A stretch of 64,000 bases of DNA from Halanaerobium congolense (GTDB taxonomy: Bacteria > Bacillota > Halanaerobiia > Halanaerobiales > Halanaerobiaceae). A model generated the notes under the pieces. The model made no database searches, had not been told where the DNA came from, and saw only the letters and a program-made list of their open reading frames with translations. Positions within the stretch are counted from its first letter, which is position 1, and every line of letters starts with the position of its first letter. Of the stretch, positions 57,537 to 60,322 are shown one piece after another. The position numbers and the translations under genes are program-made. Where the stretch lies: positions 1 through 64,000 of the forward strand of contig NZ_SOEF01000013.1 in the NCBI RefSeq assembly GCF_004366375.1, in the 5' to 3' direction.

Positions 57537-57613
57537 TTTAAATCAAAATTTAAATAAGTTCAAAACAATTCTAAAACTATTTCAAAGTATATTCAAAAGG
57601 TATTCAAAGTTGA
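57537..57613 (+). promoter_or_regulatory. Phased 11-bp direct-repeat operator array
   Basis: Five consecutive 11-bp units at 57559, 57570, 57581, 57592 and 57603 each begin TTCAAA (second unit TCTAAA). Two weaker units extend upstream (TTTAAA at 57537 and, one base out of phase, 57549). The last unit runs into the -35 hexamer of the HTH gene. Head-to-tail spacing of one helical turn is typical of cooperative protein binding on one face of DNA. Confidence 0.75.
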
Positions 57614-57638
57614 AAAAGACAGAAGAGTGTGATATAAT
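57610..57638 (+). promoter_or_regulatory. Promoter of the small HTH gene
   Basis: TTGAAA (57610-57615), 17-bp spacer, perfect TATAAT (57633-57638). The -35 overlaps the end of the direct-repeat array. Confidence 0.8.
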
Positions 57639-57665
57639 TTAATTACAGAGAAAGGAGAGATTTAG

Positions 57666-57836
57666 ATGAAGGTTTATACAACAGACGAAGTAGCTGATAT
57701 GCTAAAAATCTCCAGAGATTCTGTTTTGAAACTAATCAATCAAAGAGAGTTAAAGGCCAAAAAGGTTGCTAGAAAATGGAGAATTACAGAGCATTATTTG
57801 AAGGATTTTTTTAGAGATGTAGACAACATAAAATAA
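57666..57836 (+). CDS. 56-residue excisionase/BldC-type HTH protein
   Basis: ATG 57666 with AAAGGAGAG ahead. The product MKVYTTDEVADMLKISRDSV, then LKLINQRELKAKKVARKWRI, is a compact winged HTH of the MerR-like excisionase (HTH_17) family and little else. BldC of Streptomyces, a protein of this type, is known to bind direct repeats as head-to-tail multimers. The phased array immediately upstream therefore suggests autoregulation (inference). The next gene, 44 bp downstream, encodes another MerR-like protein. No phage or integrase gene is nearby, so a true excisionase role is unlikely. Confidence 0.85.
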   Translation: MKVYTTDEVADMLKISRDSVLKLINQRELKAKKVARKWRITEHYLKDFFRDVDNIK

Positions 57837-57880
57837 TCTTCTCAACCCGTGTTAAGAGCACAGGAAAGGATTGGGTAAAA

Positions 57881-58381
57881 ATGATTTCCTTAAGCAGTGC
57901 TAGAAATTTAGTTGAAGAAGTTATTGGAGAGGAACTACCGGTTATTTATATGGATTTGACTCTGCAGGACTGGATTAGAAAGGGTGTAATTTCTCGCATT
58001 AAAGTTGATTCTGGAACTGCATTATATCCGGATATTGTAAGTGCTGAGATTTTAACAGCTATCATTTTGCGAGAAAAGTATAGCTTGGAAGAGATTGCTT
58101 CAGCCAGGAGATGTCTAGAACTTGAAGGCAGTCATCCTAATCAAATTACTGAGGAAGACATAATTAGATTTATTAACTGCAGCAAACTGCTAGTTGATAA
58201 AAAGTTGGTAGCTAAGCTTTCGTTAAATAATATAGATTCACTTGAAAAAATAAAAGAATTGATTGATGATCTAGTAAAAGAAAAGCAGCATCTAGAAGTA
58301 GTTGGAGATTATTTAAGTGAATTTTTAAAAGCAGGTAAAAAGTTGAGAAAGGTGCAGAAAAATAAAGATTATGTTTCCTAA
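57881..58381 (+). CDS. MerR-like putative DNA-binding protein
   Basis: 166 residues; the start follows AGGAAAGGATTGGG. The N-terminal part, with LTLQDWIRKGVISRIKVDSG, then YPDIVSAEILTAIILREKYS and LEEIASARR, resembles a MerR-type winged HTH (wing then long helices). The C-terminal half (about 115-160) is Lys/Leu-rich and likely coiled coil for dimerisation. Probably co-transcribed with the 56-residue HTH gene, forming a two-gene regulatory module. Target unknown; ilvE downstream has its own start region after a terminator. Confidence 0.65.
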   Translation: MISLSSARNLVEEVIGEELPVIYMDLTLQDWIRKGVISRIKVDSGTALYPDIVSAEILTAIILREKYSLEEIASARRCLELEGSHPNQITEEDIIRFINCSKLLVDKKLVAKLSLNNIDSLEKIKELIDDLVKEKQHLEVVGDYLSEFLKAGKKLRKVQKNKDYVS

Positions 58382-59710: not shown

Positions 59711-59815
59711 ATTTCATCTTTGTTGTCAGCAGTAATTTAAAACTGTATAATAGTTTTAAAGAGTTAATTAGAAAAAATTTGTTTAATAGATAAAATTAAA
59801 TTAATGAGGGGTGTT

Positions 59816-60322
59816 ATGATGAATGAGTCGATGCAGGAATTATATGATAAATCAGTGGAAGTTTTAAATATGAGAGGAGTTACAATTGAGAATATTGCAG
59901 AACTCGTTAAAAAACTGCAGGAGCCATATAATCCGGAGATTAAGCTGGATGAATGTATTAAAAATGTAAATCATGTTTTAAAAAAAAGAGAGGTGGCCCA
60001 TGCAATTTTAACCGGGGTTGCAATTGATGAGCTGGCTGAAAAGAAAATGCTGCCGGAGCCCATTCAGAGCATTATAGATCGAGATGAGGGACTTTATGGT
60101 ATTGACGAGATTTTGCCGCTTTCAATTGTAAATTTATATGGAACAATCGGTCTAACTAGTTACGGTTATTTAGACAAAGAAAAAACTGGGATCATTAAGA
60201 AATTAGATACAAAACAGGATGGAAAGGTTAATACCTTTTTAGATGATTTAGTTGCCGGAGTTGCTTCAGCAGCAGCCAGCCGTTATGCCCATGGAGAAGG
60301 TAGTGAAGAGAATAGTAATTAA
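59816..60322 (+). CDS. PgpA/YutG-family phosphatidylglycerophosphatase-like
   Basis: 168 residues from ATG 59816 or 59819 (GAGGGG ahead). The N-terminus (about 1-50) is the helical region typical of YutG. The PgpA-like core shows EVAHAILTGVAIDELAEKK, DEGLYGIDEILPLSIVNLYG and TFLDDLVAGVASAAASRYAH, with acidic residues for metal binding. Cytoplasmic or membrane-peripheral. It may dephosphorylate phosphatidylglycerophosphate or a related phosphate ester; the function of YutG-type relatives is not settled. Confidence 0.82.
   Translation: MMNESMQELYDKSVEVLNMRGVTIENIAELVKKLQEPYNPEIKLDECIKNVNHVLKKREVAHAILTGVAIDELAEKKMLPEPIQSIIDRDEGLYGIDEILPLSIVNLYGTIGLTSYGYLDKEKTGIIKKLDTKQDGKVNTFLDDLVAGVASAAASRYAHGEGSEENSN

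Follow-up and report, generated by a model that had tools for sequence, protein, structure and literature searches.

Inspection of the window, i.e. the whole 64-kb stretch of DNA analysed, revealed an array of helically phased direct repeats in front of a two-gene module, which probably represents the dedicated operator of this module, with the small HTH protein encoded by the first gene lined up on it head-to-tail and most likely repressing transcription. The initial annotation had proposed cooperative autoregulation at this site. Autoregulation by the HTH protein (or by the protein pair) is well supported by sequence comparison, since the array is kept with the HTH gene in the orthologous loci, is absent in genome G007, and recurs at the promoter of the partner gene in genome G001, whereas direct binding by the HTH protein, its cooperative polymerisation and repression rather than activation of the promoter are what we infer.

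The core array consists of five units, TTCAAA (57559-57564), TCTAAA (57570-57575), TTCAAA (57581-57586), TTCAAA (57592-57597) and TTCAAA (57603-57608), all in the same direction and with a period of exactly 11 bp, and is preceded on its 5' side by two weaker units, as had been annotated; these read TTTAAA and stand at spacings of 12 and 10 bp. It indeed abuts the promoter, but ends at 57608 and not at 57613 as originally given, one base 5' of the -35 hexamer TTGAAA (57610-57615), which itself resembles an array unit. Together with TATAAT (57633-57638), placed after a 17-bp spacer, this hexamer forms a near-consensus promoter that is followed by GAAAGGAG and then by the ATG (57666) of the 56-aa HTH protein. 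In a five-unit score the array reached 28 out of 30, as compared with a mean of 17.6 and a maximum of 24 in 5000 dinucleotide shuffles of the region and with 21 at most anywhere outside the array on both strands of the 64 kb, and the lag-11 self-identity near 57545 was the highest in the window for any lag from 8 to 14. An Rfam search gave no match. The features of the locus are compiled in Table 1.

Table 1. Coordinates and strand of the array, the promoter and the two genes of the module, with the basis of each assignment.
Feature	Position	Strand	Basis
Two weaker upstream units TTTAAA (57537-57542, 57549-57554)	57537..57554	+	Sequence, chain score
Core direct-repeat array, putative operator	57559..57608	+	Sequence, lag-11 identity, ortholog conservation
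Sigma-A-type promoter TTGAAA-N17-TATAAT	57610..57638	+	Sequence; conserved in orthologs
56-aa stand-alone winged-HTH protein (HTH_17/excisionase-like), proposed array-binding autoregulator	57666..57836	+	Domain match, orthologs
166-aa partner protein; N-terminal half resembling MerR weakly, C-terminus predicted to be helical	57881..58381	+	Apparently co-transcribed here

One unit per helical turn in a single direction is the geometry of winged-HTH proteins that bind head-to-tail. In the proposed mechanism, winged-HTH protomers would bind the phased units in this manner, one unit per turn, and the resulting row of protein would extend to the -35, where it would most likely repress the operon made up of the HTH gene and its MerR-like partner. 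Such negative autoregulation would provide a steep, concentration-dependent switch, with the partner as its proposed output. As the promoter is near-consensus with a 17-bp spacer, no activator should be needed, and this, together with the position of the array, makes repression more probable than activation.

Twelve Halanaerobium genomes were compared, the named relatives being H. kushneri and H. saccharolyticum. The HTH gene has a close ortholog in seven of the twelve (the window's own genome included) and is lacking in five. A chain of TTCAAA-like units in steps of 10-12 bp, ending at a TTGAAA or TTGATT -35, was present in all six other HTH-bearing genomes, corresponding to five distinct upstream sequences as the near-identical L004 and L006 were counted once; the check for conserved repeat spacing suggested in the initial annotation thus showed the chain to be kept wherever the HTH gene is kept. 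The orthologous chains scored between 7.5 and 14.5, a value as high being reached by 0-2 of 1000 shuffles, and 154 control promoters gave a mean of 2.0 (sd 1.2), but as the motif had been derived from the window, the ortholog scores partly reflect common descent, and the numbers are inflated by shared ancestry. The strength of the array is uneven, the HTH promoter of G001 scoring 7.5, and an anchored alignment of six sequences showed an identity of 71% in the unit columns versus 51% in the spacers (p=0.01). Because of the shared ancestry, the recurrence of the array in G001 and its absence in G007 weigh more than these scores.

In G001, a terminator-like hairpin closes the HTH gene, and the partner gene has a TTGAAA-17-TATACT promoter of its own, preceded by a separate array with a ten-base pitch. 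This partner promoter was first found by pattern search and ranked first in score among the 154 control promoters. G007 has kept the partner together with a TTGATT-17-TATAAT promoter but lacks the HTH gene, and its upstream chain score is at the level of the null, an absence of the array that counts as one single event. A search with a three-unit pattern gave no intergenic match in the five genomes of the genus without the HTH gene.

The partner follows the HTH gene in all seven Halanaerobium genomes that carry the latter. Pairing with a MerR-like gene had been annotated, and the neighbour is present, but its MerR likeness is weak: the gene in the window had no significant family match, and a MerR_1 match was obtained for three of five orthologs with a best E of 0.016, below the curated cut-off. 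The AlphaFold model of the partner had a mean pLDDT of 56, and a Foldseek search with that model gave nothing significant. The upstream neighbours differ at most of the orthologous loci (carB in the window) and a pfkB-like gene recurs downstream in the window, L003 and L005, and therefore the HTH-partner pair appears to be a single ancestral module whose surroundings were rearranged, and not a mobile insert. The start codon of the partner is preceded by a short leader that is conserved, GTGTTARNAGCACAGGAAAGG (57846-57880 and equivalent positions; weaker in G005). Within this leader GUGUU and AGCAC could pair, G007 having a perfect CTGTGC-TAAA-GCACAG, and the leader may possibly form a translational hairpin. 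Just downstream, 59804-60322 codes for a protein with a PgpA domain, which matched the model of the alpha-ribazole phosphatase CobZ below the threshold.

The two deviating genomes also bear on the identity of the binder. The array might be occupied by the MerR-like partner, either on its own or jointly with the HTH protein, while the latter serves another role, and both the array in front of the partner in G001 and the weak MerR DNA-binding signature of the partner would agree with this. It is nevertheless quite improbable, as G007 keeps the partner without an array and as arrays are found at the more distant loci L008-L010 in genomes without a recognisable partner. Furthermore, MerR dimers bind palindromes, usually within a longer -35/-10 spacer, unlike the 17 bp present here. 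The least probable of the explanations considered is a protein-independent one, namely that phased A-tract curvature or an UP element boosts the promoter. The array is AT-rich and helically phased, with a predicted bend at the 87th percentile of the window and at the 55th to 100th percentile in the orthologs; this bend, however, is not exceptional and covers a wide range, with the C-containing TTCAAA motif and its spacing being kept throughout, the A-tracts measure just 3-4 nt, and the array is missing where the HTH gene is missing (G007).

A profile of the array was run over the 12 genomes and gave 31-47 bits for the module, the next value among the matches listed being 19.6 bits. The six best matches outside the module were read and were either coding or not located before a matching gene start; the partner array of G001, with its 10-bp pitch, was absent among the profile matches listed. 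Neither pattern nor profile searches found any other convincing intergenic array in the 12 genomes, and other two- and three-unit TTCAAA matches in the genus were mostly coding or without a promoter. As the module lies far above all other profile matches listed, the array is read as self-directed. Two weak sites were recorded besides. In G001, the genome with the second array, L071 (G001:C22:9895) has three phased TCAAA units before the TTGACA promoter of a periplasmic-sugar-binding-like gene and is possibly a further target, or chance, and in the window's own genome a pair of TTCAAA units with an 11-bp spacing precedes a peptidase-like gene (L094, G000:C3:82190, - strand).

The number of sites is also of relevance to a response regulator of the OmpR/PhoB type, which might bind the array with the module merely as its target. 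Regulators of this type contain receiver domains, control multi-gene regulons and bind direct repeats of 6 bp separated by 5 bp, equal to an 11-bp period, in arrays that typically adjoin the -35, so that the 6+5 geometry, the period and the place beside (5' of) the -35 all fit. Such a regulator is unlikely here, since further sites would be expected in each genome and none convincing was found in the 12 genomes, since genomes without the HTH gene are also without arrays, and since the presence of the array tracks the HTH subfamily across families; in contrast to OmpR/PhoB boxes, the array goes with a tiny HTH gene and has no other convincing sites. Both a response-regulator box and curvature are thus less likely than an operator bound by the HTH protein.

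Outside the genus, three distant homologs of the HTH protein from other families (∼48-65% identity) have a weaker chain, likewise phased, in front of a promoter of the TTGAAA type, scoring 4.0-6.0. Shuffles scored as high in 2 of 1000 cases for L008, 44 of 1000 for L009 and 8 of 1000 for L010, and L009 alone is therefore unconvincing. A tyrosine-recombinase-like ORF is found in the vicinity of L009 (G055:C66). When 14 HTH_17 proteins of the phylum that are more distant still were read in the same way, 13 had unremarkable upstream regions and L018 was marginal with TTCAAT. Searches of viral, phage and plasmid sequences returned distant HTH_17 proteins only (viral-contig matches L120-L125), and the seven phage or plasmid upstream regions examined contained no clear array; relatives on two Streptococcus thermophilus plasmids sit after an annotated tyrosine recombinase. 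A wider reading, which we put forward tentatively and hold to be conceivable rather than probable, is that the HTH_17 subfamily with a KKVARKWR wing forms filaments on phased TTCAAA units as a self-only switch, acting at its own promoter and at the one of a MerR-like partner, tolerates a pitch of 10 or 11 bp and operates outside Actinobacteria and mobile elements.

The 56-aa protein matched HTH_17 (PF12728) over residues 3-50 with 52 bits against a cut-off of 27, and further matches were obtained to TIGR01764 (39.8 bits) and to PHROG excisionases, which bears out its annotation as an excisionase-type HTH protein. No integrase or phage genes were seen adjoining the module, which is flanked by carB and ilvE-like genes, in keeping with the reported lack of phage genes nearby, nor were integrases present among the ORFs read within ∼1.5 kb of the orthologous loci.

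The description as BldC-size was likewise correct. The BldC-like identity that had been suggested holds in that the protein, like members of the BldC family, is a small stand-alone winged HTH protein related to MerR without a coiled-coil dimerisation domain, but not with regard to the contact residues and to the consensus and 9-bp length of the repeat. The hhalign comparison with BldC gave a probability of 51.5 and an E of 1.5e-4, over 29 columns only and with 24% identity, no natural relative of informative value was retrieved from the PDB by sequence, and AlphaFold from the single sequence yielded one long helix that was not usable. In a manual alignment, the hydrophobic residues of the head-tail interface of BldC (F21, V23 and W31 on L11') have the invariant equivalents L13, I15, L23 and V3, and the pair E8/K14 matches BldC E16/R22 in charge. 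By the same alignment, the DNA-contacting residues of BldC are replaced, Arg30 by K22 (N in one ortholog) and His46 by K37, so that base contacts would differ from those of BldC. As these two contact residues differ, and as TTCAAA at 10-12 bp replaces the 9-bp repeat AATTXXXX(C), membership of the BldC family is unproven; that the protein works like BldC, with presumed head-to-tail binding, is by analogy the best reading.

BldC protects tracts one helical turn apart at smeA-sffA, covering the promoter, and its crystals (PDB 6AMA, 6AMK) contain 9 bp per protomer (PMC5859096). Its own targets include bldC, and its sites are said to be unpredictable from sequence (PMC6428758), whereas the present locus offers a sequence-defined, evolutionarily conserved candidate operator. 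Its natural absence in G007 and second natural copy in G001 open spacing, cooperativity and filament length to direct study in vitro. A radiation of BldC-like stand-alone winged HTH proteins through the bacteria has been reported (PMC5859096); full-text searches of the open literature retrieved no work on an operator of this kind from a Firmicute-type bacterium.

The module thus shares with Streptomyces BldC a small stand-alone MerR-like winged HTH protein without a dimerisation domain, and direct repeats of variable number that reach to the promoter. In BldC, however, the repeats are 9 bp long and degenerate, AATT(N3-4)(C/G), in contrast to the TTCAAA unit of the module, which is defined and recurs every 10-11 bp, and BldC is a global developmental regulator, whereas the Halanaerobium module has no other convincing site found. 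The HTH_17 domain is common to the module and to the excisionases/RDFs of the HTH_17 group (lambda Xis, Pukovnik Xis and RdfS), which oligomerise or make filaments on DNA (PMC11963761); unlike theirs, the array here lies at a promoter and not at an attachment site.
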